From positions 1-44,495 of the IMG/VR virus record IMGVR_UViG_3300028025_000726: DNA of 44,495 nt. The stretch is one strand, 5' to 3'. Of the stretch, positions 6,522 through 28,868 are shown piece after piece (position 1 is the stretch's first letter; every line of letters starts with the position of its first letter). The notes under the pieces are model-generated. The model saw only the letters and a program-made list of their open reading frames with translations. It searched no databases and was not told the origin of the DNA. A program made the position numbers and the translations under genes. Origin of the DNA: a virus.

Positions 6522-6523
6522 AA

Positions 6524-8443
6524 ATGGCAACATCTTCATGGAACGCAGGGATCATCAGACCCGTAGCCGTTGCTCCTGCTGGGCCGTATCAAGACGGAGC
6601 GGCTCCCGGGGTCTGGACGCTAGACCAAGCAACATTTTGGATTCAACAAGGGCTGTGGCCCACTGCTGGTAACGCCGCGCCTGTTGGATTGTTTGGGGGC
6701 GGAGGCACATTAGCCTCAAATATTATTGACAAAATTGTTATAACAACTGTTGGAAACGCCGTCGATTTTGGCGATTTACTAACTGCAACGGATCAACTTT
6801 CTTCTTGCTCTTCCTCGGTCAGAGGGATTTGGGCTGGCGGTGAAGATGCAAGCAGGTCAAACGTCATCCAGTACGTCACCATTGCTACGGCGGGAAACGC
6901 ATCTGATTTTGGTGATCTTAGTTCGGTCAAGGTCGCTCCAACAGCGTTGTCAAATAGCGTACGGGGAGTAATTGCCGGAGGTGAAACAGGGGTAAGCACG
7001 TTTACTAACGTTATTGACTACATCACAATTGCGTCAACTGGTAATGCCACGGATTTTGGTGATTTAAGTGCGCAACTTAACGCTTTGGCTGGATGCTCTT
7101 CTGATACGCGAGGGGTATTTGCTGGGGGTAGAACTAGTGGTGGTACTCGCCAAACCGGTATAACATACATAACAATAGCCAGCACGGGCAACACGACAAC
7201 GTTTGGCACGCTATCAACAGCGACAAGTTGGTTGGCTGGGTGTTCTTCAAGTACTCGGGGGCTATTTGGCGGAGGGGAAGCCCCATCAAATACCAATGTT
7301 ATTGAGTACATCACAATTGGCACAACTGGAAACGCTACCGATTTTGGAGATTTAACGCAAGCAAGGTCTCGGTTGGCTGCATGCGCTTCTTCAACTCGCG
7401 GTGTGTTTGGCGGAGGTTTTGTAACAGGCCCAGTTACAACCATAGACTACGTAACTATAGCCTCTACAGGAAACGCTACAGAATTTGGAAATTTAACTGG
7501 TGTTCAAAGAGCCGAGCTTGCCGCTTGCTCTAATGCCACTGCCGCTGTCCAACCCACACCAACAAGTTCTGCAATGGCTGTTTTTATGGGCGGTGCAGTC
7601 AGTTCTACTCAAGCATCTTCGCAGTACATCAATATTGCGACAACTGGTAATGCTTATATGTGGGGCGATCTTACTGGCGCAAGATACCAATGGTCTGGTT
7701 GTGGTTCATCAACTGTTGGTTTAGCGGGTGGAGGCTATGATGCCTCTTCTACTCGTTCCAGCAATATCCAATACATAACCTATGCGACTCAAGGAACGTC
7801 TGTTTCTTTTGGGAATTTAACTCAAGCTAGACAAGCTCTTGGCGCGTTATCCAATAGCACCCGTGGGGTTTGGGCTGGCGGCGGTATTACTGGAAATGCC
7901 TCAAATGTGATTGACTACGTTACCATTGCTTCAGCAGGGAATGCTACGGATTTTGGGGACTTGCTTAGTATTGTTTATCAGATTGTCGGCGGCTGTGCAT
8001 CCACTACTCGTGGCGTGTTTGGCGGCGGTAGCAATACATCAGTTGCCCTCAATGTTCTTCAATACATAACTATTGCCTCTGCTGGAAACGCTACTGACTT
8101 TGGCGACTTAACTGTTGCGCGTCAATGGCCTGCTGGATTATCTTCTTCTACAAGAGGGGTTTTTGGTGGCGGGACGGAAACGTCATCAAACGTAATTGAT
8201 TATTTCACAATTGCATCCACTGGAAATGCCTCTGATTTTGGTGATTTGACGGTTGCACGCACAGGTTTAGTGGGCGCATCTTCCGCAACTCGTGGTATTT
8301 TTGCTGGGGGTAACGGTAACGGTCAAAATGTTATTGATTACATTACGATTGACACTACGGGCAACGCAACTGACTTTGGCGATTTAGCAAGTGCATACCT
8401 TGGTAATGCGGCGGCTTGTTCCAACGCCCACGGTGGTTTATGA
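6524..8443 (+). CDS. Adhesin-like protein with two sets of six kelch-like repeats
   Basis: The start at 6524 lies just after the previous stop at 6521; the longer frame from 6485 would overlap that gene. The N-terminus (GVWTLDQATFWIQQGLWPT) echoes the preceding paralogue. Twelve repeat units follow. Units 1-6 end CSNATAAVQ, then a linker PTPTSSA at ~residues 344-350 and a methionine at 351 (nt 7574) begin units 7-12, which end CSNAHGGL. This reads as a fusion of two six-unit genes. The role is inferred to be tail-tip receptor or glycan binding. Confidence 0.72.
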   Translation: MATSSWNAGIIRPVAVAPAGPYQDGAAPGVWTLDQATFWIQQGLWPTAGNAAPVGLFGGGGTLASNIIDKIVITTVGNAVDFGDLLTATDQLSSCSSSVRGIWAGGEDASRSNVIQYVTIATAGNASDFGDLSSVKVAPTALSNSVRGVIAGGETGVSTFTNVIDYITIASTGNATDFGDLSAQLNALAGCSSDTRGVFAGGRTSGGTRQTGITYITIASTGNTTTFGTLSTATSWLAGCSSSTRGLFGGGEAPSNTNVIEYITIGTTGNATDFGDLTQARSRLAACASSTRGVFGGGFVTGPVTTIDYVTIASTGNATEFGNLTGVQRAELAACSNATAAVQPTPTSSAMAVFMGGAVSSTQASSQYINIATTGNAYMWGDLTGARYQWSGCGSSTVGLAGGGYDASSTRSSNIQYITYATQGTSVSFGNLTQARQALGALSNSTRGVWAGGGITGNASNVIDYVTIASAGNATDFGDLLSIVYQIVGGCASTTRGVFGGGSNTSVALNVLQYITIASAGNATDFGDLTVARQWPAGLSSSTRGVFGGGTETSSNVIDYFTIASTGNASDFGDLTVARTGLVGASSATRGIFAGGNGNGQNVIDYITIDTTGNATDFGDLASAYLGNAAACSNAHGGL

Positions 8444-12612: not shown

Positions 12613-14706
12613 ATGCCATTACAAAAAATTCTGTTCAAGCCGGGCGTCAATAAAGAGAACACCCGCTACACCACCGAGGGCGGCTGGTACGACTGCGACA
12701 AAATTCGTTTCCGTCAAGGCAACCCTGAGATTATTGGCGGCTGGCAACGCATTTCCTCAAACACATTTAATGGCACTTGCCGTTCGCTTTGGAACTGGAC
12801 AACGCTGGGCAACCTCAACCTAGTGGGTGTTGGCACTAATACAAAGTTTTACATCCAGAACGGCGGTGCGTACTACGACATTACGCCTATCCGCGTAACT
12901 ACTACGCTTGGAACAGACCCCTTTACGGGCAACGGAACAACCACAGTAACTGTAGCGGCTACATCTCACGGGGCTACAACAGGCTCGTTTGTAACTTTTA
13001 GTGGCGTTACAGGCACGTATGCTTCAACCCTGAATGCGCAGTTTCAAATCACGGTAGTTAACGCTAACTCGTACACAATTTCTACATCGCCAACTGTAGT
13101 TGCGGCGGGTACGTCAGGTGGCTCGGCTGTTTCTGCGGCTTACCAACTTAACGCTGGCCCTGCGTTTGCCGTGCCTTTGACGGGTTGGGGCGCAAGTTCA
13201 TGGGGCACACCTCCTACATTTGCGCCACCTTCAACAGTTGGCACTTGGGGTTTTGGCGCTACTTCTACTACAAACTTACAGCTTTGGAGCCAGATTAACT
13301 ATGGCGAAGACTTGGTCTTTGGCCCTCGTGGTGGTGGCTTGTATTACTGGGATGCAAATGCGGGTTTAACAACTCGCGGTGTACTGCTCAACTCCCTTGG
13401 TGGCACAGTATCGTTTACTAATGCTTCGCCGACTGTGGTGACATCCACCATACTTTATACCGAAGGCGCAGCGCTTAAATTCTCTGGCGGCTCTCTACCA
13501 ACAGGTGTTACTGCGGGTACTACGTACTATGTTTTTGAAGTAAATGGCTTAACGTTTAAGTTACTAGATGGCGCAGGTGCTGCTGTTAATACAGCTTCAT
13601 CAGGCACGGGCGCAGTGTCTACTATTGTTGACGTACCCACTGTGCAAAACAGCGTTACGGTGTCGGACATATCTAGATTTATTTTGGTGTTTGGCTGTAA
13701 CGACTACGGCAGTGCAGTGCTTGACCCCATGCTGATCCGTTGGTCAGCGCAAGATGACCCATACAACTGGACACCCGACCCAACTAATCAGGCAGGGTTT
13801 ACCCGACTATCCCACGGTTCAGAGATTGTAGCTACGGTGCAGACTCGTCAGGAGATTGTGGTATTTACTGACTCAAGCGTATATTCACTCCAGTACCTTG
13901 GCCCACCTTATGTATGGGCAGCGCAGTTGCTTGGTGACAACATCTCAATTCAAGGCCCCAACGCCGCTGTGATTGCTTCTGGTATTGTGTACTGGATGGG
14001 CGTAGACAAGTTCTACCAATACGATGGTCGTGTGCAAACACTTAATTCTGACTTGCGTCGCCATATATTTGGAGACTTTAACCAAGCTCAAGCCGCACAG
14101 GTGTTTGCCGGTACAAATGAAGGTTTTAACGAAGTCTGGTGGTTCTATTGCTCTTCTGGTAGCAACGAAATTAACCGTTACGTTATTTACAACTATGTTG
14201 AGAAAATCTGGTACTACGGCACAATGCAACGCACGGCGTGGTTAGATTCTGGTTTGCTTGACTACCCCTTGGCGGCTACGTACAGCAACAATTTGGTGTA
14301 TCACGAGAACGGGCTAAACAACAATGAAACAGGAACAACTACCGCTATTGATGCCTACATTTCATCCTCAGAGTTTGACATTGGCGACGGACATAATTTT
14401 GGTTTTGTGTGGCGCGTCCTTCCTGATTTGACCTTTGAGAACGCTGAGAACTCACCCACGGGTGCTACACCTTCGGTGGCTATGACGCTATATGGCTTGG
14501 CAAACTCAGGTTCTGGTGTAACAAGCTCGGCCAGCCAACCTGTGGCTAAGAGCAGTACGTATGTGATTACCGAAGAGTTTACTGGCATGATCTTCACGCG
14601 CATGCGCGGTCGCCAGATGATCTTTAAGATTAGCTCCAACCAGATCAACACAGTCTGGCAATTGGGCGCACCCCGTATTGACATTAGACCGGATGGCAGA
14701 CGCTAA
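12613..14706 (+). CDS. Large virion protein, P22 gp10-like hub/stabilisation candidate (697 aa)
   Basis: The N-terminus (KILFKPGVNKENTRYTTEGG, then WYDCDKIRFRQGNPEIIGGW) is common to a family of podophage tail hub / DNA stabilisation proteins. The body is beta-propeller-like, with Trp-rich strands such as IRWSAQDDPYNWTPDPTNQA and the C-terminal RPDGRR. Two Gly/Thr-rich modules (approximately residues 98-170 and 260-335, including FQITVVNANSYTIS and YYVFEVNGLTFKLLD) look inserted and resemble modules used for surface decoration. It probably closes the tail. The family assignment rests on the N-terminal pattern and gene context. Confidence 0.68.
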   Translation: MPLQKILFKPGVNKENTRYTTEGGWYDCDKIRFRQGNPEIIGGWQRISSNTFNGTCRSLWNWTTLGNLNLVGVGTNTKFYIQNGGAYYDITPIRVTTTLGTDPFTGNGTTTVTVAATSHGATTGSFVTFSGVTGTYASTLNAQFQITVVNANSYTISTSPTVVAAGTSGGSAVSAAYQLNAGPAFAVPLTGWGASSWGTPPTFAPPSTVGTWGFGATSTTNLQLWSQINYGEDLVFGPRGGGLYYWDANAGLTTRGVLLNSLGGTVSFTNASPTVVTSTILYTEGAALKFSGGSLPTGVTAGTTYYVFEVNGLTFKLLDGAGAAVNTASSGTGAVSTIVDVPTVQNSVTVSDISRFILVFGCNDYGSAVLDPMLIRWSAQDDPYNWTPDPTNQAGFTRLSHGSEIVATVQTRQEIVVFTDSSVYSLQYLGPPYVWAAQLLGDNISIQGPNAAVIASGIVYWMGVDKFYQYDGRVQTLNSDLRRHIFGDFNQAQAAQVFAGTNEGFNEVWWFYCSSGSNEINRYVIYNYVEKIWYYGTMQRTAWLDSGLLDYPLAATYSNNLVYHENGLNNNETGTTTAIDAYISSSEFDIGDGHNFGFVWRVLPDLTFENAENSPTGATPSVAMTLYGLANSGSGVTSSASQPVAKSSTYVITEEFTGMIFTRMRGRQMIFKISSNQINTVWQLGAPRIDIRPDGRR

Positions 14707-15012: not shown

Positions 15013-17595
15013 ATGAGCCTTGCTGTACTAGCCGACCACATGGCATCCAAGGGTCGCGGCCCTGACTCGATGCTTATCCACATGTCCCCACGTGAAGTGC
15101 AGGGGCTACAAGCGTTGGCCGAGAACCACGGCGGCTCCCTTACTATTAACCCCGAGACGGGTCTACCTGAAGCTGGCTTCTTAGATAAGTTGTTACCGAC
15201 TATTATTGGCGCTGGCCTTTCTTTTATTCCCGGCGTTGGCCCTCTTATGGCTGCTGGTATTGTTGGTGGCATTCAAACAGCGCGTACAGGTGATATTGGC
15301 AAGGGTCTGGCTGCGGGTCTTGGTGCTTACGGCGGTGCTGGTTTAGCCCAAGGGTTAACAACTGCTGGAGCGTCGGCGCTTGGCAGTGAGGCTGCATTAG
15401 GGGCTGGTATCCCCGCTGATATGGCTTTTAACTTAACAGATGCTGGAGTAAGCACAGCTAATGCAGATATAGCAAATCAGGCTATTCAGCAAGCACAGCC
15501 ATCTATGTTTGACAAACTATCCGCTGGTGCAAGCCAAGCAGTATCTAGCCCCAAAGCTGCTGGTGCTTTCCTCAAAGACAACGCCAAGAACCTAATGTAT
15601 GCCGCTGGCCCAGCTATTCTTGCTGGCGCGAACGTACAGTCAAAAGGCCCACAGACCATAACAAAGCCCGGCATGATTCGCCCATATTCTTTTGACCCAT
15701 ACGGCGGTACGTACACTGCTGGAACTCCATACGAAGCTATGCCGACTAAGGCTGCTGAAGGTGGTCTGATGGGTATGAATGACGGCGGCTACGCCCCCGG
15801 CCAGTTAAATTTTGCTCAACGTAGTGAGCCTGTTGTTCGTATGGCTGAAGGTGGTGATGTTCAGCGTTTTGCTATTGGTGATCTTGTTAAAGCAGACATT
15901 GATAAAGCCTATGCCGCAGGTGATTACAGCAAAGTTAACGAACTTGCTCAAGCAAACAAAATTACTGCTGAAGACGTAGCTTCTACGTACAAAGGGTTTG
16001 ATACCTCTGGTTTAGCTGGGTTAGGTATTAATTTGTTTACACCCCCAGCAGCGCCTACGTACACGCAATACACCCCAGAACAAATTGGTAGTTATCTATC
16101 AAATCCCGCTAACCAAAACATTGACATTAACAAAGCAATCGTAGATACCAATGCCGATCCCGCTGCGGTCAATCGTTATATTGCTAGTTTGACCAGCCCG
16201 TTTGTTGGTGCCGCTGATACGTCTACAGGCGTACAAGGTTCCGGCACGTTTGGTATTTACAACGAGTTTAACAGGCTAGGTATCAGCCCTGACGAGTACT
16301 ATGCGGCTGCTATTGCAAACGACCCTAAGTATGCCGGTTGGAATAAGGGCATGATCCAAGAAGCCTACAACTTAAACAAAGGAATGTACGCGTTGTCTGA
16401 TGCAAAGAAAGGCGTTGTAACAGACACCGACTGGGCTAAGTTGATGGTTGGCAATGGTTCATGGGATAAACCGCAATACGACGTTAACGAAATGGCGCAA
16501 GCTACGGGATTGTCTAAGCAAGAAGTACAAGCGCGTTTTGATTTGGAAAAACTCAAAGCAAATCCAATTATTAAAACAGTAACAAACACAGTTACAGGTA
16601 CAGGTACAGGTACAGGCGGTACAACAACTACTCCAATTACTTACAACACAGCCGGTACAAATGCCCCCGGGGGTCTTGAAAGTATTCTTGGTTTACCACC
16701 CGGCGTAAGTGGTGCAGGTATAACTACTGTCAACCCTAACGGCACAATCACAACTCGCCCTGACTTAAGTTTGCAGATGAAAGACGTACGTGATACGTAC
16801 GAAAAGGGTGGCGGCAGTTTGGGCGTTAACAAAAACCTTTTTGTTCCTAAGACGCAGGATGAACTTTTTGCAAGGTACAAAAACACCGGTGGTTCTAAAG
16901 CCGCCCTTGACTACTTGATGGGCAAAACACCATACGACCCCGTGCCCTACACAAAAACCGGTGAAATACAAAAACCATACTGGGAGTCTGTTGGTCGGTT
17001 CCCAGAGAATCGTAGTACTAAAAAGTATGTATTTGTAGACGGAAAGTATCAGCTTAATCCTGACTACGTAAAACCTTCTTACGTACTTGCTGGTGAAAAA
17101 GCTGCGGCGCTAACAAATCAAGACAAAGAACCTACCGAAAGCCCCGGTGCTGGAAACAAATGGACATGGAACTCCACAGATAAAAAGTGGGAAGCTAAGC
17201 CTATTTCAGCAATAGCAGATACAAGTAATCAACTTGATTCTTCCAGTACAGGCGGCGAAGCTAATGGTGGTTTGATGGCTATGGCTGGCGGTGGTATGGC
17301 TGGCCAGTTTGACCTAGGTGGTTACTCTGACGGCGGCAGATTGCTTCGTGGCCCCGGTGATGGTGTATCTGATTCCATCCCTGCAACAATTGGTAACAAG
17401 CGCCCCGCACGACTCGCCGACGGTGAATTCGTAGTACCTGCACGCATTGTGTCTGAGTTGGGTAATGGCTCAACTGAAGCTGGTGCGCGTAAGTTATACG
17501 CAATGATGGATCGTGTACAAAAAGCCCGCCGAGGCACAGTCGGCAAAGGTAGGGTGGCAAAGAATAGCCGCTCCGACAAATATCTTCCCGCATAA
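15013..17595 (+). CDS. Internal/ejected virion protein candidate (860 aa)
   Basis: After a polar start, residues ~55-115 form a Gly/Ala-rich hydrophobic stretch (FLDKLLPTIIGAGLSFIPGV..GPLMAAGIVGGI), as seen in phage ejection proteins that insert in the envelope. Later there are AEGG-type motifs (AEGGLMGMNDGGYAPG), a Thr/Gly linker from ACAGGT repeats (nt 16594-16617), and a conserved end: GDGVSDSIPATIGNKRPARL, ADGEFVVPARIVSELGNGST. That ending occurs in many phage structural proteins. No peptidoglycan hydrolase site is evident. The order with the next two genes resembles a set of internal head proteins delivered with the DNA. Confidence 0.62.
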   Translation: MSLAVLADHMASKGRGPDSMLIHMSPREVQGLQALAENHGGSLTINPETGLPEAGFLDKLLPTIIGAGLSFIPGVGPLMAAGIVGGIQTARTGDIGKGLAAGLGAYGGAGLAQGLTTAGASALGSEAALGAGIPADMAFNLTDAGVSTANADIANQAIQQAQPSMFDKLSAGASQAVSSPKAAGAFLKDNAKNLMYAAGPAILAGANVQSKGPQTITKPGMIRPYSFDPYGGTYTAGTPYEAMPTKAAEGGLMGMNDGGYAPGQLNFAQRSEPVVRMAEGGDVQRFAIGDLVKADIDKAYAAGDYSKVNELAQANKITAEDVASTYKGFDTSGLAGLGINLFTPPAAPTYTQYTPEQIGSYLSNPANQNIDINKAIVDTNADPAAVNRYIASLTSPFVGAADTSTGVQGSGTFGIYNEFNRLGISPDEYYAAAIANDPKYAGWNKGMIQEAYNLNKGMYALSDAKKGVVTDTDWAKLMVGNGSWDKPQYDVNEMAQATGLSKQEVQARFDLEKLKANPIIKTVTNTVTGTGTGTGGTTTTPITYNTAGTNAPGGLESILGLPPGVSGAGITTVNPNGTITTRPDLSLQMKDVRDTYEKGGGSLGVNKNLFVPKTQDELFARYKNTGGSKAALDYLMGKTPYDPVPYTKTGEIQKPYWESVGRFPENRSTKKYVFVDGKYQLNPDYVKPSYVLAGEKAAALTNQDKEPTESPGAGNKWTWNSTDKKWEAKPISAIADTSNQLDSSSTGGEANGGLMAMAGGGMAGQFDLGGYSDGGRLLRGPGDGVSDSIPATIGNKRPARLADGEFVVPARIVSELGNGSTEAGARKLYAMMDRVQKARRGTVGKGRVAKNSRSDKYLPA
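16594..16617 (+). repeat. Short tandem repeat (ACAGGT)n in a virion gene
   Basis: Four perfect hexamers code for a Thr-Gly linker of the 860-residue virion protein. The unit length is a multiple of three, so gain or loss would keep the frame and only change linker length. Confidence 0.6.
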
Positions 17596-17604
17596 GGAAT
17601 AGAC

Positions 17605-18687
17605 ATGGCTTCTAGCTCAACCCCAACGCAAATTACGCAAACAAACTACGGCTTTGCGCCGGAAGTTGCACCCTACGCACAAGACCTGCTGGGTCAGGCA
17701 CAGGCGCTGACCGACGTTAACTACAACCCATACATGCAGTATCAGGGTGAGCGTGTTGCTCAGTTCTCTCCACTGCAACAAATGTCGTATGAAAATGCGG
17801 GTTTAATGCAGCCTCAAGGTCAACTGCAAGATGCAACTGCTATGGCAGGCACTGCAGGTTTGGGCGCACTTAACACTAGCTACACATACAACCCACTTAA
17901 TCCACAGTCATTTGTTGGCGGTACACAAGGGGCTTACGATAAAACTACTGGCGCATACACACCCGGTACTGGCATGGCTAGCCAATACATGTCTCCCTAT
18001 ATGGGTGAAGTTGTTGCTCGTCAACAAGCCGATGCTCAACGCCAAGCCGACATTGCCATGCAAACCCAAAATGCTCAAGCGGCTCGTGCCGGTGCGTTTG
18101 GTGGTAGTGGCAACTATCTAATGCGTAGCCAGATGGCGGGTAACTTAGCTCGTCAAAAAGGCGATATTGCTGCTACTGGGTTACAAAACGCTTATACACA
18201 AGCGCAACAACAATTCAACCAAGAACAAGGACAAAGATTAGCTGCGGGGCAACTAAACGCACAACAAGGCCAGTTTGGTGCGGGTCTTGGTTTGCAAGGT
18301 TTACAGACAGCGCTGACTGGTGCAAATACTTTAGGTCAGTTGGGGCAGCAGCAGTATCAGCAGGGTATGGGTATTAACGCACTGCAAAATCAATACGGCT
18401 TGCAGCAGCAAGCGCAGATGCAAAAAGAAATTGACACCAAGTACGGTGACTATATGGCTGCGCAGAACTACCCGTACAAGAATCTGTCGTTTATGTCGGA
18501 CATCATTCGTGGCGTGCCGTTGACTCAGACTGGCTCATCTATTTATCAAGCACCTCCTTCGACTGCGCAGAACATTACTGCTCTGGGCCTTGGCGCTGCT
18601 GGTATCAGTAAGCTTATGGCTAACGGCGGTGTGGCTATGTCTAATGGTGGCGGCCTTGGCGCACTTGCGTTAAATTCTTTGGTGTAA
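17605..18687 (+). CDS. Gln/Ala-rich internal virion protein candidate (360 aa)
   Basis: The N-terminus (PTQITQTNYGFAPEVAPYAQ, then DLLGQAQAL) and the long Gln/Ala-rich helical part (QQQFNQEQGQRLAAGQLNAQ) are typical of a family of phage proteins encoded beside ejection proteins. A tail with NGGVAMSNGGGLGAL resembles the AEGG motifs of its neighbours. A stop-fused TAAGGA lies upstream. It is probably a minor capsid interior or ejected protein; the evidence is composition and context. Confidence 0.6.
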   Translation: MASSSTPTQITQTNYGFAPEVAPYAQDLLGQAQALTDVNYNPYMQYQGERVAQFSPLQQMSYENAGLMQPQGQLQDATAMAGTAGLGALNTSYTYNPLNPQSFVGGTQGAYDKTTGAYTPGTGMASQYMSPYMGEVVARQQADAQRQADIAMQTQNAQAARAGAFGGSGNYLMRSQMAGNLARQKGDIAATGLQNAYTQAQQQFNQEQGQRLAAGQLNAQQGQFGAGLGLQGLQTALTGANTLGQLGQQQYQQGMGINALQNQYGLQQQAQMQKEIDTKYGDYMAAQNYPYKNLSFMSDIIRGVPLTQTGSSIYQAPPSTAQNITALGLGAAGISKLMANGGVAMSNGGGLGALALNSLV

Positions 18688-18696
18688 GGATAAAAA

Positions 18697-20298
18697 ATGA
18701 TTGACCAAGCATCAGTATTTGCCGAGCGGTATAGGGGTAATCCCCAAGTCTTACAAGCTACGGTTTTAGGTCAGGGCAACGTCCCCGGTCTAGACCCTTA
18801 CACTGCGTTAAATGCACTAAGGTTAATTAAAGAATCCAACATGATGGCGATGGCAGGGAGGGCGCAACAGCCAACTTCATCCCCCTCAATCGTTGCTGAA
18901 ACGTTAGCCCCGGCCCCTTCTCCGCAAGGTCTGGGTGCTATGGTACCAAATACAATGGGACAAATGCCCCCGGGAGCCCCGCAAGGGCTTGCTGCTATGG
19001 CACCACAACAAAGGGCTCCTGTTATGCAAAGATCAGGTGGTTTGGCCGGTATGCCGACCCCAGAAGAAAACTACGCCGAAGGCGGTATTGTTGCGTTCCA
19101 AAAGGGTGGTTTAAATGCCGTTGCTGTAACCGATGATCCTACTTTAAGAATGGGCGGCGAAGGCGCAGATGACGTCGAACGAGACGATTACTTAGCTATG
19201 CTTGACGAGTTAGAGGGTGGAGAAGGCAGCCCTGCTGGGTTGGCTGCGGCAAATAAACTTACTTTAGCTACCGCTCGCCGTATTGCAAGTCGCGATCTAA
19301 GGGACTTGACTCCTGAAGAAGCTAAGACAATGTATTCAACTAAATACAAAGAAATTACCGACGCTGCTGGCCCAAGCCCGTACGCTGGTATGCGTGCCGA
19401 CTTAGCTGAACAAGGCAAAGAGCGTGCTGGTAATTTAGAGTTTGCAAAGGGTGAGGCTTTACTACAAGCAGCCGCTGACGTATTAGAAGGCAGTAACGCA
19501 ATTCGCGGTATTGCAAAAGGCGGGGCTAGGTTTGCTAAAGTTTATGGTGATGCCCAACGCGCCGACAAACTTGCTAAACGCTCAATGGCGCAGATGGAGT
19601 TCCATATTAACGACGCTGAACGCAAAGAACGTATGGGTAATTCTCGCGCCGCTACTGCCGCTGTAGAAAGAGCAAGTAAAGACCGCAGGGACATGAACAA
19701 GGCAGAACTTGATCGCGATATAGCATTGGGTAGGTTAGCTTCTGAAATGGGGAAAATTAACAAGCCTCCTCGCGCTGCTGGTGCTGGTGGTGATAAAGCC
19801 TTAAAACTTAACGAGCAGTTAAGTGCGGCTGAAGTTGCATACGAAATGGATCCAAGCGAAAAGAATAGACAACAAGTTGTTGCTATCCGACGTGCAGTAG
19901 ATCGCGTAAAAACAACTGAAGCTGGCCCCGGTAAACTTGGTGTTCAAGAGTCTCAAATCTTTGTTACTGCGGCTAAAGATTCTAGTGCTAACGCACGTAA
20001 ACGGTTGTACTTAGACCCAGTAATGCGGTCTAATGACCCTGCGGCTATCAACAAGCGATACAGAGAGTTTTACGCTGAAGAAATTCAAGGTCGGTTCCCC
20101 AAAGCGTCTTTGTCTGAGTTGTTATCCGTAGCACCTGCAGAGGAGTTGGGTAGCGTAACTGCGCCAGCAGCGGGTAAACCCGCAGCGCAAAAAGCACTGC
20201 CAATGCCTGCATCGAAGGATGATTTAAAAACCAATCAACTCTATAATACAAGCCAAGGGCTAGCTATCTGGAACGGCAAAAGTTTCGTAGCGCAATAA
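18697..20298 (+). CDS. Virion-associated protein with AEGG motif and helical C-terminus (533 aa)
   Basis: The N-terminus (IDQASVFAERYRGNPQVLQA) is followed by a Pro/Met/Gln-rich linker and by YAEGGIVAFQKGGLN around residues 127-141, a motif also seen in the two upstream genes. From about residue 190 the protein is helical and charged (NDAERKERMGNSRAATAAVE; RRDMNKAELDRDIALGRLAS). The last 25 residues (NQLYNTSQGLAIWNGKSFVA) look like a small beta hairpin end motif found on other phage virion proteins. Function is inferred as internal virion or ejection-associated. Confidence 0.6.
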   Translation: MIDQASVFAERYRGNPQVLQATVLGQGNVPGLDPYTALNALRLIKESNMMAMAGRAQQPTSSPSIVAETLAPAPSPQGLGAMVPNTMGQMPPGAPQGLAAMAPQQRAPVMQRSGGLAGMPTPEENYAEGGIVAFQKGGLNAVAVTDDPTLRMGGEGADDVERDDYLAMLDELEGGEGSPAGLAAANKLTLATARRIASRDLRDLTPEEAKTMYSTKYKEITDAAGPSPYAGMRADLAEQGKERAGNLEFAKGEALLQAAADVLEGSNAIRGIAKGGARFAKVYGDAQRADKLAKRSMAQMEFHINDAERKERMGNSRAATAAVERASKDRRDMNKAELDRDIALGRLASEMGKINKPPRAAGAGGDKALKLNEQLSAAEVAYEMDPSEKNRQQVVAIRRAVDRVKTTEAGPGKLGVQESQIFVTAAKDSSANARKRLYLDPVMRSNDPAAINKRYREFYAEEIQGRFPKASLSELLSVAPAEELGSVTAPAAGKPAAQKALPMPASKDDLKTNQLYNTSQGLAIWNGKSFVAQ

Positions 20299-20312: not shown

Positions 20313-23300
20313 ATGGCTAGAGAGTTTTCCTTTGAAGAAGCTATAGCTCCTCCAGCTAAAGCACCTGCGCCTAGAGAGTTTTCTTTTGAAGAAGCCGTTG
20401 GCGCTAAACCCGCACCAAAAGCAAAAGCAAAACCCATTGCGGAAGAAGCAGGATACGACTTTGGTGCTGCTATGGCGGCGGACATTGCTCCTGTTGAACC
20501 ATCGGAGAAAAAAGTCTACACAGGTAGTGTGTTTGACACTCAGCCATTCGAGCCCGAATTTAATAAAGCAGAAGCCGATCGGCTATCACGCCGTGCGTAT
20601 GCAGAAGCTACTACAAAGCCAGCACGTCGCACACAGTACGTACAAGCTACGCCAAAAGAACAATTAGAAAGAACCGCTGGGCAAGCTGCGTTAGATACAA
20701 CAACAGGTCTATTGCAAGGTGCTGTTGGTATTCCTAAAGGCATTGCCGAGAACATTAACGCTGGGGACAACCCTCTTGCACGGTTCTATAAGTCTTCTAC
20801 CGAAGCAGGTGAAAGAGCAAAGTCTCCATACTTGCAAAGCCAAAAGGCTGAACGTGAAGCATTGCTTAAAAATGTCTTAGCAAATCAAGGCGAGCTTGCT
20901 GAGACTAGAGCCGCGTTTACTAGCATGTTTAGCCCTGCCGGTGCCGACATAGTTGCGCAAGGCGCTGGTTCTCTGGTTCCAACTCTTGGGTTGAGTCTTT
21001 TAGGGCTTGGTCAAAAGTCTATGGTAGCAATGAACGCTCTGTCTAACGCAGGCAGTTCCGCTCAGAACACCGCAGAAAAACTTAGTCAGATGAGTCCAGA
21101 GGACTGGAGCAAGAGCAGTGCGTATCAGGACTTACGTGCTACTGGCATGTCCCATCGTGATGCAGTCAACATGCTTACGCCTCTGTTTGCGCTTCCATCG
21201 CAATTTGTTGGTGGCCTTATTGGTATAGCATCTGGAACTACCGGCTTAGAAGCTCGTTTAGCTGGCAAAACTACCCAAGGTGTACGTGCTTCGCTAGGTC
21301 GTGCAGGTGCTGAATTTATTGGTGAAGAAGCTGAAAGCGTTGTGCCGTCTTTTGTAAGCAACGTTACACAAAGACTTATTGATGAAAAGAAATCTCTTAC
21401 CGAAGGCCTAGGGAGAGAAGCCGTTGAAACAGCCTTTGGTGCTGCCCCCGGCTCAGCTTTGGCGGCAATTCCGCCAGCACGTCGTCAGCGTATGGATCAA
21501 TACGTTCGTGATAGAGGGTATGAAGGCCTTTCGGAATACATTGCACGATCAAAAGGTTTCCTTGGTGGCCCTAAAAAGTCAGTCGATCAAGTTATTGCTG
21601 AGCTAGACGCACTGGTTCAGAAAGAGCAAGGAGAACAAGATGTTGGACAGACTATCGCCGAGCCAAGTGGAGAAGGCGTTTCAATGGCTGACGAGTCCGG
21701 TCGTCGAGAGCCCACCGGAGGACTTGATTTCCTTGAGCCAAGTGGAATGGTTCCTACTGGACAGGATGCTACAAGGGCTGTTGCAGGAGAAGGAAGAGAA
21801 CCCACTGCAGTAGAAAGAACAACGCCACTTACGTTTGAAGAACGACTTCAAGCAGCGGGCGAAACTGATAAACAACAAGGAGCCGATGTTGGCACTACGA
21901 CCACTGAAACCGAGCAAGCAGAAACGCAAGGACAAGAAGCAGCCCCTGCCGCAAATGTAGACCTGCTTGACAAATACTTTACGCCCAATTCGGCGTTGCA
22001 CAAGTTTTATAAGGCGTTGCCGCAAGAAGCTAAAAAAGGATCGGATGTTTATAAGGGTGCGGCGCAAGTTTATACCTTAACAAACAACGTATTGTCCGGC
22101 GTCAATGAAACCCTTGCAGAACTAACAAAAAGATTAAAAGCAACTGGACACCCAAGCATTACCGCTGAGTCTCCTTCAAAGCGTGCTTACGCCAAAGCTA
22201 CCGCAACGCCTGATATTAAATTTTTGCACAAATCAATTTCAGAAATGTCTGGACTTGGTGTTCGTATTGCTGGCCAAGCAATGGCGGTTGCTAAACAGTA
22301 CAAAGGCAAGAAGGCGGTATCGACTGATACATTAGGAAAGTCAATAGATGAGTACTATCAAGGAGGCAAAAATCTTATTCACGGCCTGTATCTATATGGG
22401 ATGCTTGACCCATCCGAGGCCGCTGAGTATGAACAAGATATGGGGCTAACCCCTAAGCCCGCCGAGACAGCCAAAGCTCCTGTTGAAACACCTACGCTAG
22501 AAGATACAACTCCATCCGTAGACGAACTATTTCCACCACCAAAAGGTGAGGTAGCTACTGAAGTAGAAGTACCTGATCTTAAGTTTGAAGCCCCCAAATC
22601 AACAACACCAGAGCCTCCGGCGGAATCAGTGCCTTACTTTGGCTCTGAAGAAATTAACGCGCTTGGCAAAAAAATTATTGACATGGTTGAGTCAATCACT
22701 AATGACTTTATGGTCGGTGATATGGTTAGGTTTGGAAATATTTCTGGCGTGGTTGTTGGAAAAGAAGGTGATTATGTTCGCATGCGCCCCGATGGTGCTA
22801 AATCGCCAAAAGCTTATCAACGCGTGCCAAGAAAATCGTTAACGCTTATTGCACGACCAGATACAACATCTACTTCAGCGGCTTCTAAATCTGCAGACCA
22901 AGAAAAGAAATTTGGTTCTGAACGAGGGGAACTTAATGCAGATAAAGCGGGCCTGCTTCAAGTTTTAGGTGCAAATATGTACGCTTCGGCTGTTGCCGAG
23001 GTTTCTGTTAAAGAGCTTTTGCAAAACGCGTTTGATGCTGTAAAGGGCGCGGTATCAAGCAAAAAAGCTAAGCCACTGTACGAAGTTGGTAAGATAAAAA
23101 TTGAAATCAACGGCGATGATCGCACGATCTCTATTACCGACAATGCTAGAGGCATGACGCCTGAAATTGTGCGTAACGCATTTTTTACCATTGCTGGTTC
23201 AGACAAATCTGATCTTGATCCTAGTGAACGAAGCGGTGGTTTAGGCCTTGCAAAAATGGGCTTCATGATGGGCGCTGATAAGCTCATCTTAGATACCGTA

Positions 23301-26300
23301 CGTGATGGCGTACGCGTACGTGTTGAAACTACTGGCAAAAATATAGCAAATGACGACTTTAAAATTGTTAAATCACCCGCACCAAAAAATGAACACGGTA
23401 CAACCGTCACGGTACAAATCCCTGAGTATTACGTAGACCCAAAAACTGGTGATAAAAAGTCCATTTACTTCTCGAGCAACGCTGATTACTATGATCCGCT
23501 TCAGAAGCCACTGATTGGCCCAGTAGAAGTTGAAGTTAAATCTACTAGCTATGGAAGCTCGGAATCACAAGTACTTCCAGTTGGCGTTAATTTTCCAGCG
23601 GATAAGTTTCAGCAGTTTAAAGTTAATTTTAGTTGGGGTACTGCAGACGTTTATTTTGCAAAAGACCGTAACCCCGGAAAAGTGTATGAGATAGGCCATC
23701 AAGTGCTATCTAGTGGTGTGTACCAATTTGATACTACGTTTAAGATTGGCGACGAAAAAATACCTTACGACATTATTGTTAACGTTAAGTCTAATGTAGA
23801 AGCAAAGCACCCAGATTACCCATTTGAGAATAGCCGCGAACGCTTTAAAGGACGGTTGGAAAAAGACGTTAACGCTCTTAACGCATACCTTGCACAGATT
23901 GCACGGGGTAATGAAGCACAAGACCTGCAAGACAACTTTAAAAATATTGTGTCGATGCCACGAATGGATGTTGGCCAAGATATAGCCGACGTCAGTAACA
24001 AACTGCATAAAGCATTTGATAATCGTGGTACTACCGCAAAACGCATGGAATTACCTCCCATGCCCGCAGAAGTTAGCGTTGTCGGTACTACAGTTGTTAT
24101 TACAAAAACAGGTAAGGTGCTTGCAGACGCCGCTAAGAAAACGGAAAAACAAAAAGAAGCTTCGTTTAAAGCAGAAAAAGAAGCGCCGGAAATGAAAGAT
24201 TTCTTGTTGCAAATGGCGCAAAATCCTAAACAGCCTATCTTTCACAACAATACTAACGTTAACTATCTAGAGGTTGGTAAGCAATACGGCAATCCAGAGG
24301 TATTCTTTGCTGAGCTTGGCACAATAATGGTTGAGATGAAGGAAGCGCTTGCTGAAAGTGGCTTCTCTGGCTACGATAAACTTAAAGCCGAAAACTTATT
24401 CTTTGGTGGTATTTCCGTCGATAAGGGCTACGGCGGTGTCCATATTAAAGTGCCGTATAAAGCAGTACTGTTAAACCCCTTCTACGACTTTGGTGCTAAA
24501 ACACTGTTTGGTGCACGCGAGTACATGTGGGAGACGATGACCCATGAAGTTGCGCACACTGGTGACATGAGCCACGGTGTCGGGCACAACACTCAAATGT
24601 TAAAGGTACGTCAATATCTTGCAGACGAGGGTTTAGCCGACTACTATCGCGACGCTATCATGGATATACTGCGTCGCCACGAAGCAACATTCACCGCAAT
24701 GAGGGAAGCATATGGACGATCAACAACGGCAAACACTGGAAAGTCTCTTGAAGACTACGGAAAAGGTGCCGCCTCAACACAGGCTGGAGGCATTGGAAGT
24801 AGCAGCGAGGACGAACTGGGAACTGTACCGACAGGAGAGCGACGAGGAGGGTATGGCGATATACGCGCCGCTTCTGAGATTGATTCAACAGTCGGACTCC
24901 GTAGAGACGATGCTCCAGAATCTGTAAAAGGTCTTAACCAAGATGTTGTTAACGCAATTAACAACAACGATATCAATGGTGCGTTAAAGGCTCTTGCCCG
25001 TAACACATCAGGGCTTTACTCAGAACTTGCTAGTCGGTTAGCAGAATTAGACCTGCCAACAAACATCACGTTCGGCCAGACTGCGGACTTACTGCATCGC
25101 TCAATGAACGTCACCGTCGGCCAGCAACAGATTCGGTTGTTTGCGTATTTGAGCAGGCAGTACCCTGATTTGTACGACAAGTACTTTAAAAATTATGACC
25201 GTTCCGAGAATCTGGAAAAGGTTTATGCTGGACTGCAAACTTTGCAAAAAGGCAAGTACAACTTAGACCCAGTCATTGTTGAGTTTAAAGATGTAGCTGA
25301 CGCATACAATCGCAACATTAAAGGCTTGAAAGCGCCGGGCATGTACGTGCCTGCTGTTGATACTATCTCTATATCACCGAGCAAAGCATTTGGTTCTAAC
25401 AACCGTGTGTTGTTGCATGAGATTGTGCATGCGGCTACTGAGTATGTGTTGCGTGGTGGCGTGCCTAACCTGACTACCCGTCAGCTTCAAGCAGTTGCAA
25501 ATCTGTACGAGATGTATGAGTACGCTCAAACTAAACTGCCTCCCGGAGACTACGGGTTCACAGATATATTTGAGTTTGTGGCAGAGGTAATGACTAACCC
25601 TAACTTCCAAAAGAAGTTATCGGGCGTCTACTATCGCACTGAGAAGACCACACTGCTCAACTCCCTGCAACGTTTCATTGGTCGCATTTTTGGCTTGGAG
25701 AATCTAGCTGGCGCGGCAATGAAAGAGATCAATCAAATCTTCTCTGCTTACCGTCCAACAGGTGCGGTGGTATCGCCACTTCGTTTTGCTAAGAGGATAC
25801 GTGGGCCGATCAGCACTCCCGATACTTGGCGCACTGCCGAGTCGGTACAAAAAGGCATCCAAGATAGGATTGCCGAGGCAACTGCTGGTCGCATGACAAT
25901 CGGTGAAGCAATTGGTGATTTAAAAGATGCTTTGTGGGATGCAAGCGGGTATGCAGTTAGGGCTACTGTTTTGCCATTCCTACAATTACGTCAGCTATCT
26001 GAGCTAACACGCAGTCGCTTTCCACAGATTACTGGTGCTATCCGAATTGTTTCGGAGATGGTTTCCTACCGTGGTAAAAAGTTAAAGCTTGCAGAGGATA
26101 TCGTTCAAGATTGGACTAAAGCTCAAGGTGCAAGTCCAGCGCAGTCTAAGCTAATGAGCCGCATAATGATTGAGGCTACCATCCGTGGCCTTGACCCCGA
26201 TACTGCACAAGCAACTGCTTTGAACAAACCATTAGCTGATGCTTGGAACGCGCTCGACCCAGAGTTCAAGACTATTTACCGCAAGGTTCGTGACTTCTAC

Positions 26301-28868
26301 GCCGACTCTGTTAAAGAGATGGTCAATGAGATGAAGTCTAAGGCACGTGCTATTACTGACCCCATTCAGCGTAAGAAGGTGCTTGACAAAATTGACGAGC
26401 AATTTGGCCCGGGTAAACTTGCTCAGCCTTACTTCCCACTACGTCGTTTTGGAAACTTCTTTTTCCAGATTGGAAGCGGCCCGTACAAAGAGTTCTATAC
26501 GTTTGAAAACCCAATAAGTCGTGAGCTTGCTTTCAGAGCACGCAAACGTGAGCTCTCAAAAGGCAATGCGCAGCAGAGAAAACTTGCTGAAACTATGTAC
26601 AAGGGCAACGGTATTTCTGAGCTGTATAGCCGCAACGTTGCAACGACGCAGATTCTGCGTGATGTACAAGACTTAATAGATGGTGTTTCTGCTACCGACG
26701 TAGCCGGATTGAAGTCGGAACTTAACGATAGCCTTAACCAGTTGATTTATCTGATGCTGCCGCAACAAAGCATGCGTAAGATGTTCATTAACCGCAAGGC
26801 AATCCAAGGTGCAAGCGCGGATATGCTGCGCGTGTTTGCGCATACCGCTGTACATAGTGCGTATCAACAGGCTCGGTTTAAATATTCTGAGCCATTTATT
26901 AACAACATTAACAACGCACGTAGCTACATTCGTGAGCTTGCCAACCCTGACAAACAGGCCGTGTACATGGATTACGTGCAAGAACTTGAGAACCGCACAA
27001 AGAACGTGCTTGGTATTGAGGACAAGAGCGTAGCCGCACAGATAGCGGGAAGCGTAACTAATACGGTATTCTTCTTCGTGCTATCTGCACCTGCTAGTGC
27101 ATTAGTTAACATTCTTGGTGCTTCTGCAGTAACTATGCCCTATATTGGTAGTCGCTACGGCTACGCCAAAACAAATGCGTCGATGCTGAAGAACCTTGGC
27201 CGTTACATGGCAAGCATCCCATCTCGTACTCTCAAGCCTGTTGCTACGGGCCACGTTATGCAAACGTCGTTTCCTTCTATCGTAGAAGGTGGCAAGCTTA
27301 GTCCGCTGCTACAAGAAGCGGCTAATAAGTTTATTGAAGATGGAGATATCAATATCTCCATGACAAATGACATTTACGATTTGGGTGAGCGTCCATCATC
27401 TACGTACACTGGCACGGCTAACGTATTTAAGAAAATTTTAGCTGGCCCTTTCCACCAAGCTGAGCGCATGGTGCGTGAGGTGTCTTTGCTTACTACGTTT
27501 GAATTGGCGCACGAAAAGTTTTCAAAAGAGCCAAAGCGTGATCTGCGTGGTGTTATTGAACGTGATGCAAACGGCGATCCTATTATGCGCACGCCGGAAG
27601 AAGCGTTTGATGATGCTATTGAAGAAGCGCGGGATATTGCTGGTATGACGCTTGGTGACTATGTGCGTCAGATGAAGGGTCGCGTATTCACGTACCCCGG
27701 CGTTAATATAGTTATGCAGTTCAAGCAGTACGCTATTCAGTCAGCGTTTATCTTGCTACGTAACCACTACCTTGCATTTGCCAGACCATTTAGTTCTTCT
27801 GAGATAAAAGACTTCCGTGAACAGCTAGAGTCGAGCGGTATGCCGCCGGACATTATTGAGCAACGTACTAGAGAAGCAGATAAGTATCGTAAAGAGTTGG
27901 GCAACGAGGCGTATAGACGTTTGGCCGGTATCCTTGGTATGACGTTCTTGTACGGAGGAGTTGTAGCGCTGCCGTATTTCTCTCTCGGTCTTGGTACTCT
28001 AATAAAGATGTTTGCCCCAGATGATGACGACGAATTCTTTGATTGGGAAAACTGGTTTGCCAACTTCATGAACACTGAAGTCGGCGGAGCGGCTGGTGCT
28101 ATCTTTGCAAAGATGGGTATGGAGACAGAGAAATCTAAGGTTGCTGGTAAGAAGCTAGCAGAAGCCGTTGCTTATGGGCCCGCATCTGCGGTAACTGGAA
28201 GCGCCTTGTCCGATCGCGTCAGTTTAGATTTAAAAAACTTGTGGTATCGCGAAGGTCGTTACGACAACGACGCACGTCAAGCCGTTACAAACGAAATCAT
28301 TTCTAACTTGGGCCCAGCAGTTGGATTGGGTTTGAATTGGGTAGATGCGTATCAGTTAGTTGAAGACGGTCAGTTTGGGCGTGCATACGAGAAAGCAGTT
28401 CCTGCTATCTTTGCTAAACCTGTTACTTCATATCGCATTGGCGAAGAGGGTGCAACTACTCGCGGTGGTGACATTATCGGTGGCTTGTACCCCGATGAAT
28501 TTACGCTGTGGGATTTGAGTATGCAAGCAATTGGCTTGCAACCACTCAAGTTATACAAAGGTCAGAAGGCGGCTATCCAAGCTAAAACATATCAGCAGAA
28601 AGTAATTGATAAGCACAACTCAATTCTTAACCGCTTATGGATGGAGCGCGGAACACCAGCTTACGCCGATGCTCAAGAGAAAGCTCGTAAGTTTTCTTTA
28701 CAGTTTCCAGATATGGCTATCGATGCAGACGCTATTGATAATGCGTTTGACGCACGGGCTGAAGCTCAAGCCCAAGCTAACGCAATCGGCGCAAGGTTGG
28801 ATGAAAAGCTATTCTCTAAGACACTGCCAATGCTGAACTACGGGGTTCAACAGTCAAAACCCAAATAA
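20313..28868 (+). CDS. Giant polyvalent protein: GHKL ATPase, two HExxH metallopeptidase-like sites, PLxRFG motif (2851 aa)
   Basis: The N-terminus has two copies of REFSFEEA (residues 3-10 and 21-28). A small barrel-like segment lies at ~797-846 (VGDMVRFGNISGVVVGKEGD). A GHKL ATPase module follows: ELLQNAFDA at 901-909 (N905, D908), DNARGM at 943-948 and GGLGLAKMG at 975-983. HEVAH at 1411-1415 with H1421/H1425, and HEIVH at 1702-1706, are two zinc-peptidase-type sites. PLRRFG is at 2042-2047; hydrophobic segments lie near 2250-2280 and 2535-2567. Polyvalent proteins of this kind are known from phages and conjugative elements and are thought to be delivered with DNA. It is the last + strand gene, after the internal virion genes, which fits ejection into the host. 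Targets are unknown. Confidence 0.85.
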   Translation: MAREFSFEEAIAPPAKAPAPREFSFEEAVGAKPAPKAKAKPIAEEAGYDFGAAMAADIAPVEPSEKKVYTGSVFDTQPFEPEFNKAEADRLSRRAYAEATTKPARRTQYVQATPKEQLERTAGQAALDTTTGLLQGAVGIPKGIAENINAGDNPLARFYKSSTEAGERAKSPYLQSQKAEREALLKNVLANQGELAETRAAFTSMFSPAGADIVAQGAGSLVPTLGLSLLGLGQKSMVAMNALSNAGSSAQNTAEKLSQMSPEDWSKSSAYQDLRATGMSHRDAVNMLTPLFALPSQFVGGLIGIASGTTGLEARLAGKTTQGVRASLGRAGAEFIGEEAESVVPSFVSNVTQRLIDEKKSLTEGLGREAVETAFGAAPGSALAAIPPARRQRMDQYVRDRGYEGLSEYIARSKGFLGGPKKSVDQVIAELDALVQKEQGEQDVGQTIAEPSGEGVSMADESGRREPTGGLDFLEPSGMVPTGQDATRAVAGEGREPTAVERTTPLTFEERLQAAGETDKQQGADVGTTTTETEQAETQGQEAAPAANVDLLDKYFTPNSALHKFYKALPQEAKKGSDVYKGAAQVYTLTNNVLSGVNETLAELTKRLKATGHPSITAESPSKRAYAKATATPDIKFLHKSISEMSGLGVRIAGQAMAVAKQYKGKKAVSTDTLGKSIDEYYQGGKNLIHGLYLYGMLDPSEAAEYEQDMGLTPKPAETAKAPVETPTLEDTTPSVDELFPPPKGEVATEVEVPDLKFEAPKSTTPEPPAESVPYFGSEEINALGKKIIDMVESITNDFMVGDMVRFGNISGVVVGKEGDYVRMRPDGAKSPKAYQRVPRKSLTLIARPDTTSTSAASKSADQEKKFGSERGELNADKAGLLQVLGANMYASAVAEVSVKELLQNAFDAVKGAVSSKKAKPLYEVGKIKIEINGDDRTISITDNARGMTPEIVRNAFFTIAGSDKSDLDPSERSGGLGLAKMGFMMGADKLILDTVRDGVRVRVETTGKNIANDDFKIVKSPAPKNEHGTTVTVQIPEYYVDPKTGDKKSIYFSSNADYYDPLQKPLIGPVEVEVKSTSYGSSESQVLPVGVNFPADKFQQFKVNFSWGTADVYFAKDRNPGKVYEIGHQVLSSGVYQFDTTFKIGDEKIPYDIIVNVKSNVEAKHPDYPFENSRERFKGRLEKDVNALNAYLAQIARGNEAQDLQDNFKNIVSMPRMDVGQDIADVSNKLHKAFDNRGTTAKRMELPPMPAEVSVVGTTVVITKTGKVLADAAKKTEKQKEASFKAEKEAPEMKDFLLQMAQNPKQPIFHNNTNVNYLEVGKQYGNPEVFFAELGTIMVEMKEALAESGFSGYDKLKAENLFFGGISVDKGYGGVHIKVPYKAVLLNPFYDFGAKTLFGAREYMWETMTHEVAHTGDMSHGVGHNTQMLKVRQYLADEGLADYYRDAIMDILRRHEATFTAMREAYGRSTTANTGKSLEDYGKGAASTQAGGIGSSSEDELGTVPTGERRGGYGDIRAASEIDSTVGLRRDDAPESVKGLNQDVVNAINNNDINGALKALARNTSGLYSELASRLAELDLPTNITFGQTADLLHRSMNVTVGQQQIRLFAYLSRQYPDLYDKYFKNYDRSENLEKVYAGLQTLQKGKYNLDPVIVEFKDVADAYNRNIKGLKAPGMYVPAVDTISISPSKAFGSNNRVLLHEIVHAATEYVLRGGVPNLTTRQLQAVANLYEMYEYAQTKLPPGDYGFTDIFEFVAEVMTNPNFQKKLSGVYYRTEKTTLLNSLQRFIGRIFGLENLAGAAMKEINQIFSAYRPTGAVVSPLRFAKRIRGPISTPDTWRTAESVQKGIQDRIAEATAGRMTIGEAIGDLKDALWDASGYAVRATVLPFLQLRQLSELTRSRFPQITGAIRIVSEMVSYRGKKLKLAEDIVQDWTKAQGASPAQSKLMSRIMIEATIRGLDPDTAQATALNKPLADAWNALDPEFKTIYRKVRDFYADSVKEMVNEMKSKARAITDPIQRKKVLDKIDEQFGPGKLAQPYFPLRRFGNFFFQIGSGPYKEFYTFENPISRELAFRARKRELSKGNAQQRKLAETMYKGNGISELYSRNVATTQILRDVQDLIDGVSATDVAGLKSELNDSLNQLIYLMLPQQSMRKMFINRKAIQGASADMLRVFAHTAVHSAYQQARFKYSEPFINNINNARSYIRELANPDKQAVYMDYVQELENRTKNVLGIEDKSVAAQIAGSVTNTVFFFVLSAPASALVNILGASAVTMPYIGSRYGYAKTNASMLKNLGRYMASIPSRTLKPVATGHVMQTSFPSIVEGGKLSPLLQEAANKFIEDGDINISMTNDIYDLGERPSSTYTGTANVFKKILAGPFHQAERMVREVSLLTTFELAHEKFSKEPKRDLRGVIERDANGDPIMRTPEEAFDDAIEEARDIAGMTLGDYVRQMKGRVFTYPGVNIVMQFKQYAIQSAFILLRNHYLAFARPFSSSEIKDFREQLESSGMPPDIIEQRTREADKYRKELGNEAYRRLAGILGMTFLYGGVVALPYFSLGLGTLIKMFAPDDDDEFFDWENWFANFMNTEVGGAAGAIFAKMGMETEKSKVAGKKLAEAVAYGPASAVTGSALSDRVSLDLKNLWYREGRYDNDARQAVTNEIISNLGPAVGLGLNWVDAYQLVEDGQFGRAYEKAVPAIFAKPVTSYRIGEEGATTRGGDIIGGLYPDEFTLWDLSMQAIGLQPLKLYKGQKAAIQAKTYQQKVIDKHNSILNRLWMERGTPAYADAQEKARKFSLQFPDMAIDADAIDNAFDARAEAQAQANAIGARLDEKLFSKTLPMLNYGVQQSKPK

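Follow-up and report, generated by a model that had tools for sequence, protein, structure and literature searches.

A GHKL ATPase and a zincin form a single exchangeable cassette in a giant polyvalent ejection-type phage protein

The DNA analysed here, hereafter the window, is a virus record of 44,495 bases, from a bacterial virus known from environmental sequence alone. The final and largest gene of its rightward structural block is an ORF at 20313..28868, which starts with ATG, contains no internal stop and encodes a protein of 2851 aa, P0001 (this ORF, its features and the upstream genes given below are all on the + strand). Upstream of it lie genes for a virion structural protein of 697 aa (12613..14706, phrog_3287, E 1e-62), kept beside the giant ORF in relatives, for an 860-aa probable ejection-module partner (15013..17595), a conserved neighbour in relatives for which a family search gave no match, for a 360-aa DNA ejection protein homologue (17605..18687, PHROG phrog_4287 ‘DNA ejection protein’, E 6e-10), and for a 533-aa protein (18697..20298) that occurs in six relatives as a fusion with the 360-aa one. 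Downstream, the opposite strand encodes a primase/helicase (DUF927), a helicase, an exonuclease and a family A DNA polymerase. An initial annotation, made from the letters of the window, had described the giant protein as encoded with ejected virion proteins. As a matter of gene order this is correct, both for the PHROG 4287 match and for the upstream neighbours, which are conserved alongside the giant ORF in relatives. Nearer the left end, three consecutive overlapping ORFs at 4417-8443 (392, 318 and 652 aa) each match phrog_19111 and phrog_26444, which suggests tandem duplicated tail or fibre genes.

Direct reading of P0001 places the GHKL motifs ELLQNAFDA (with E901, N905 and D908), DNARGM (from residue 943) and SGGLGLAKMG (974-983), followed by HEVAH at 1411, HEIVH at 1702 and PLRRFG at 2042. 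The three GHKL boxes reported initially are intact, and two HExxH sites and PLRRFG are indeed found with them in one uninterrupted 2851-residue chain. When this chain, which contains 26 His, was shuffled 20,000 times, two HExxH arose in 2 shuffles and more than two in none; conservation is a stronger test of the motifs than such statistics. A first scan of viral contigs yielded 34 loci with relatives of the giant ORF, from which 18 long ORFs were aligned. Several distinct domains, namely a GHKL ATPase, two zincins and LPD39 (E 9e-18 at 1880-2031), share a single polypeptide, and the proposal that P0001 is a polyvalent protein agrees, at the level of sequence, with every feature that could be tested. 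No match to P0001 was found by PADLOC. It resembles the LPD39-type polyvalent proteins of Iyer et al. 2017 (PMC5512222) in its giant multi-domain chain, its LPD39, its zincins and the company of virion genes, and differs from them in that a GHKL ATPase and a zincin are joined in a single cassette.

The protein can be divided into two ends (residues ~80-520 and ~1540-2851), which appear to form a virion/ejection chassis carrying the second HExxH, LPD39 and PLRRFG, and a cassette (residues ~870-1480) consisting of the GHKL ATPase and a transducer-like domain, then the first zincin. The extreme N-terminus, at residues ~3-30 (20313..20405), carries a tandem short motif, REFSFEEAI / REFSFEEAV. Analogous tandem motifs of different sequence were found in 12 of the 18 relatives (L010, L006, L028, L031, L030, L021, L011, L029, L020, L019, L033 and L032). 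They consist of 2-3 tandem copies of 9-18 aa that vary between relatives (REFSFEEA, WTPPSDAVVV, NPKTGEVLFLVGDQW, NFFDRFDAP, VDYRKLAEEFGG, NPFAKYA and others), even among relatives still ~50% identical at their C-termini. The 6-mers of these motifs were absent from all other ORFs of at least 60 aa in the loci fetched. The motif is possibly a fast-changing, multivalent docking tag.

The N-terminal chassis covers residues ~81-520 (20553..21872). On the other side of the cassette, zincin 2 (residues 1560-1860, 24990..25892) contains HEIVH at 1702-1706 (25416..25430). H1702, E1703 and H1706, together with the downstream glutamates E1754/E1758, are invariant in all 18 relatives, and fit the MPTase pattern of polyvalent proteins. 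Searched against solved structures, a profile of the region 1490-1860 matched three chains at E <= 0.01, over ~130 residues apiece: PhiM1 gp48 (8vb2, E 1.5e-8 to 5.8e-8) and two further virion entries (9sfn, E 1.7e-7 to 7e-6, and 23sg, E 1e-3). PhiM1 gp48 (PDB 8VB2), of the same large type as T7 gp16, is a tetrameric ejection protein solved by cryo-EM (PMC11440229), and this homology supports the ejection context proposed initially. Both are large proteins of ejection modules, and the HExxH is retained in the homologous domain; however, gp48 has only 1263 aa, and P0001 is far longer on its N-terminal side, which includes the cassette.

Next come LPD39 (residues 1880-2031, 25950..26405), which matches Pfam PF18858 at E 8.8e-18 with 65 bits for a cut-off of 27, the PLRRFG motif (2042-2047, 26436..26453) and the C-terminal chassis (2060-2851, 26490..28865), which is 46-65% identical among more distant relatives and includes two conserved hydrophobic stretches, at 2253-2273 and 2540-2560. 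Outside zincin 2, the C-terminal chassis had no match among solved ejection proteins. Structure prediction by segment, recommended initially, was informative for the cassette, which matches HSP90 and GyrB folds, and not for residues 1556-2751, where the model (mean pLDDT 64) was too poor for comparison and Foldseek gave no significant match.

LPD39, PLRRFG and the C-terminal part are common to phages such as Ochrobactrum POI1126 (gp30, E 3e-68), and the same LPD39/PLxRFG chassis occurs in Skulduggery gp28 (6e-63). These giants belong to those labelled ‘DarB-like antirestriction’ (phrog_10089). They lack the GHKL-zincin cassette, the cargo of POI1126 being a cell-wall hydrolase and a methylase-helicase. 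Conversely, Pfam found neither methylase nor helicase in P0001, so that the LPD36-methylase-SF2 helicase dyad of DarB is missing. The best stretch of the phrog_10089 match is residues 2016-2402 (window 26358-27518), in the shared C-terminus, and because only the C-terminal half matches, we rejected DarB as a functional assignment. Such labels can stem from the shared LPD39/PLxRFG C-terminus, without the DarB methylase-helicase, and can therefore mirror the chassis of a giant protein instead of its cargo.

Homology and gene order support the packaging and ejection of P0001, which is probably injected along with the phage DNA. In Burkholderia phage JC1, 51 peptides of gp69 were found in virions (PMC9144972); gp69 gave no match with the chassis profile, which leaves this as an analogy only.

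The cassette begins with a GHKL ATPase domain of HSP90/rIIA-like type (residues 870-1050, 22920..23462). Pfam HATPase_c_3 covers residues 896-1027 (E 5e-8), above cut-off like HATPase_c, and the N, G1, G2 and G3 boxes and the Bergerat fold are all found when Pfam, the structure model and Foldseek are combined. The cassette model (mean pLDDT 76) aligned over ~400 columns with the N-M domains of HSP90 and the 43K fragments of GyrB/ParE. The length of this alignment points to a transducer-like domain after the ATPase, at residues ~1051-1200 (23463..23912). The 50 matches listed were all GHKL proteins, so that this comparison bears on the GHKL part of the cassette and not on zincin 1. The transducer-like domain has the invariant motifs WG, SG..QF and YPF...R. 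Its R1175, in YPF...R, lies beyond the end of the profile alignment, and may presumably be the equivalent of the ATP-contacting arginine of the HSP90 transducer.

In sequence, the GHKL domain is nearest to HSP90 N-domains. Among solved structures its profile matched best TRAP1 (E 1.9e-10) and HtpG (E 3.7e-10), and in hhalign it matched HtpG and T4 rIIA with probabilities of 98.4% and 98.1%. The profile match to HSP90/HtpG stops within the N-domain, whereas Foldseek runs on into the middle domain. No HSP90 C-terminal dimerisation domain was recognised in the cassette, where the putative protease comes next. Among viral predicted structures, A0A516L4L2_1 matched the whole cassette (E 1e-42), and most of the others, many of them rIIA, aligned with the GHKL/transducer part. 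Matches obtained by tblastn among isolated phages and plasmids were limited to this part. The prominence of rIIA among named phage proteins, in structural and in weak sequence matches, raises the question of an rIIA-like exclusion or counter-exclusion function, with GHKL acting as in T4 rIIA and the zincin standing in place of the variable C-terminal domain. The 98% hhalign match and the short lid with its GG-G-K motif fit such a module, but HtpG scores equally well. Moreover, rIIA and rIIA-like proteins stand on their own as chains of 666-887 aa, most of them annotated beside rIIB; no rIIB was found in PHROG scans of the larger ORFs of the window. None of the seven rIIA or rIIA-like proteins examined contains HExxH, on which ground we rejected an identification of the module with rIIA. 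An rIIA-like function is in our view quite improbable.

Zincin 1 (residues 1310-1480, 24240..24752) contains HEVAH at 1411-1415 (24543..24557) and a third ligand at H1421. Its pattern is HExxHxxxxxH; in 95 of 101 cassettes the third ligand is a His ten positions beyond the first, and in the other 6, such as L085, L091, L092 and L093, Glu takes its place. The model has the order helix, three strands, HExxH helix, helix. No Pfam WLM or YgjP match was obtained for the module of P0001 itself, and other cassette members gave weak WLM, YgjP or SprT matches (best WLM E 2e-4, YgjP 8e-4), the WLM scores of 18-19 bits being under the cut-off of 26. A profile of 48 zincin-1 sequences, compared with solved structures, had Wss1p at the top, with E 0.006. 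Individually these scores are weak, and together they suggest a zinc protease of Wss1/WLM/YgjP-like type. It shares with Wss1/WLM, YgjP and SprT zincins the HExxHxxxxxH pattern and the helix-sheet-helix order, and differs from them in falling below the Pfam cut-offs, in its fusion to a GHKL ATPase and in its occasional Glu ligand. When 399 genomes of one bacterial order were searched with the zincin-1 model, only short matches around the HExxH stretch were found, and those inspected were mostly YgjP-type proteins of ~240 aa (HELAHLK.MNHS..FW), whereas four viral records that contain the cassette were matched by the same model at E 1e-51 to 1e-69.

The initial annotation had spoken of two peptidase sites in one protein. 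Both are of zincin type, but they are not equivalent, since the second is part of the chassis and the first alone accompanies the GHKL domain. An internal duplication was also considered as the origin of the two zincins. It is unsupported, as profile comparison gave a probability of 4% and aligned them just around HExxH.

Comparison of relatives reveals the cassette as a unit of exchange. Over residues 1560-2851, L030 and L020 share 82% identity, against 30% over the cassette. L019 keeps both parts of the chassis, 57-97% identical to that of L030 over residues 81-520 and 75-100% identical from 1561 on, apart from one block at 55%, and has no cassette. Across relatives, the identities of GHKL and zincin 1 are strongly correlated (r 0.91), whereas those of zincin 1 and the C-terminal chassis are not (r 0.28). 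By these comparisons, the GHKL ATPase and zincin 1 are swapped together.

Three more scans of viral contigs were made, one with the complete cassette, one with just zincin 1 and one with just GHKL, and the best 80 loci were kept for each. With the zincin-1 pattern, GHKL was found in 78 of 79 ORFs, the remaining one being truncated where its contig ends. With the GHKL pattern, HExxH lay 250-560 residues downstream in 78 of 80 ORFs; one of the others is cut by its contig end and in one it lies farther away. Within these sets of best 80 loci, the two were not seen apart save at contig ends, and more distant relatives may differ. In the best 80 bacterial loci of a GHKL-pattern scan, which are HtpG-like or other GHKL ORFs, none was listed with HExxH, and no whole-cassette relative of cellular origin was found there.

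We assembled 100 distinct phage cassettes in addition to that of P0001, so that at least 100 versions exist in other uncultivated viral contigs. E901, Q904, N905 and D908 are kept in all 99 cassettes with letters at these sites; D943, G947, G975, G978, K981 and G1029, as well as H1411, E1412 and H1415, are kept in 101 of 101. The catalytic residues remain invariant even among cassettes with as little as ~25% identity, in which most other positions vary, and in comparisons with the two closest relatives the cassette segments have a dN/dS of 0.06-0.16. These figures show strong purifying selection on the cassette, both active sites included. They also bear on a purely structural interpretation, whereby the cassette would be a folded spacer or a DNA-binding piece of the ejection core and its catalytic motifs merely structural. 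Its position inside a virion-type chassis and its loss from some relatives would suit such a part, but invariant catalytic residues in a sequence where most other positions change make it highly improbable.

The cassette is found on other chassis as well. In L045, L059, L066 and others, complete ORFs contain cassettes 60-69% identical to that of P0001, and their C-termini have no match to its chassis. LPD38 replaces the P0001-type chassis in L045 and L059, where a DNA methyltransferase or ART-PolyVal lies close by. The cassette also occurs near the C-terminus of proteins of ~1600-1700 aa; in two of these (L095:3010-8142 and L245:2888-7657), the chain has a virion structural phrog_6958 region at the N-terminus and Sigma70_r1_1 in the middle, and L095 has in addition a weak virion RNA polymerase match (phrog_2206). 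A separate observation concerns L003. Its synonymous divergence from the window at 22920-24302 (GHKL and middle part) is 1.65-1.75, compared with 0.37-0.68 elsewhere in this gene, which suggests recombination within the cassette.

P0001 itself belongs to the known polyvalent proteins, while the GHKL-zincin cassette is undescribed in the literature that we searched. In the main text of the survey by Iyer et al. 2017 (PMC5512222), GHKL, HSP90, histidine kinase and rIIA go unmentioned, and a search for GHKL-metallopeptidase fusions in phage proteins, whose scope was the main text of articles mostly outside subscription journals, found none. The suggestion that the exact domain combination may be new stands in this sense, but not as a rarity, given at least 100 distinct cassettes in uncultivated viral contigs.

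Our preferred reading, held with modest confidence, is that P0001 is a large ejection protein which delivers an ATP-gated clamp-protease into the host. It would be an ejection protein of podophage type, with chassis on both sides and a cargo slot (~530-1540) filled by a single GHKL-zincin cassette. Packaged in the head, it would be ejected with the DNA; in the host cytoplasm, ATP would close the GHKL clamp, and a tetrameric chassis like that of PhiM1, if P0001 forms one, may favour closure. The clamp would then grip a protein, or DNA with bound proteins, and offer it to the attached zincin, and cleavage would remove or inactivate host factors early in infection. In this scheme ATP-gated proteolysis and a host target are inferred, as is the takeover or anti-defence role suggested initially.

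Alternatively, the enzyme could act on its own chain. The GHKL domain would then be an HSP90-like chaperone, and the zincin would cut the giant protein or its partners at assembly or after ejection. Such self-processing or self-folding would suit proteins that have to unfold and refold for ejection, the proximity of the GHKL domain to HSP90 N-domains is in keeping with it, and polyprotein processing has been argued to be a frequent role of zincins in polyvalent proteins, as in P1 DdrB (Iyer et al. 2017, PMC5512222), although the same authors allow for host-directed roles as well. However, in L019 the same chassis lacks the cassette, which is thus unnecessary for packaging and ejection in general. 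In addition, the chassis carries a zincin of its own, and the presence of the same cassette on unrelated chassis is a poor fit for a dedicated processing enzyme. We thus favour a host target, because chassis are found without cassette and cassettes on unrelated chassis, and consider self-processing rather unlikely.

A more specific form of the clamp-protease reading would make the cassette a new class of injected counter-defence enzyme. Gated by ATP, the HSP90/rIIA-like clamp would close on the incoming phage DNA or on a host complex and feed the host proteins bound there to the Wss1-like protease, so as to strip the genome, early in infection, of DNA-bound defence proteins, whether of restriction, CRISPR or other systems. 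Put so precisely, the proposal is distinctly unlikely.

Few elements of phage infection are as poorly understood as polyvalent proteins, and the cassette offers a discrete, widespread and directly testable unit in one of them. Natural pairs with and without it separate cargo from delivery chassis and define a clean experimental unit, residues ~862-1490, for which catalytic mutants can be defined in advance. A GHKL clamp acting with a protease would link counter-defence of the rIIA type, the zincins of injected proteins and the acquisition of enzymes by ejection proteins. As for the cargo slot, the cassette-less relatives L023, L032 and L033 have a different HExxH there (HELMHSLEQMM, HEILHHMERMLP and HEIMHHMERMLP), so that this slot may often hold a peptidase.
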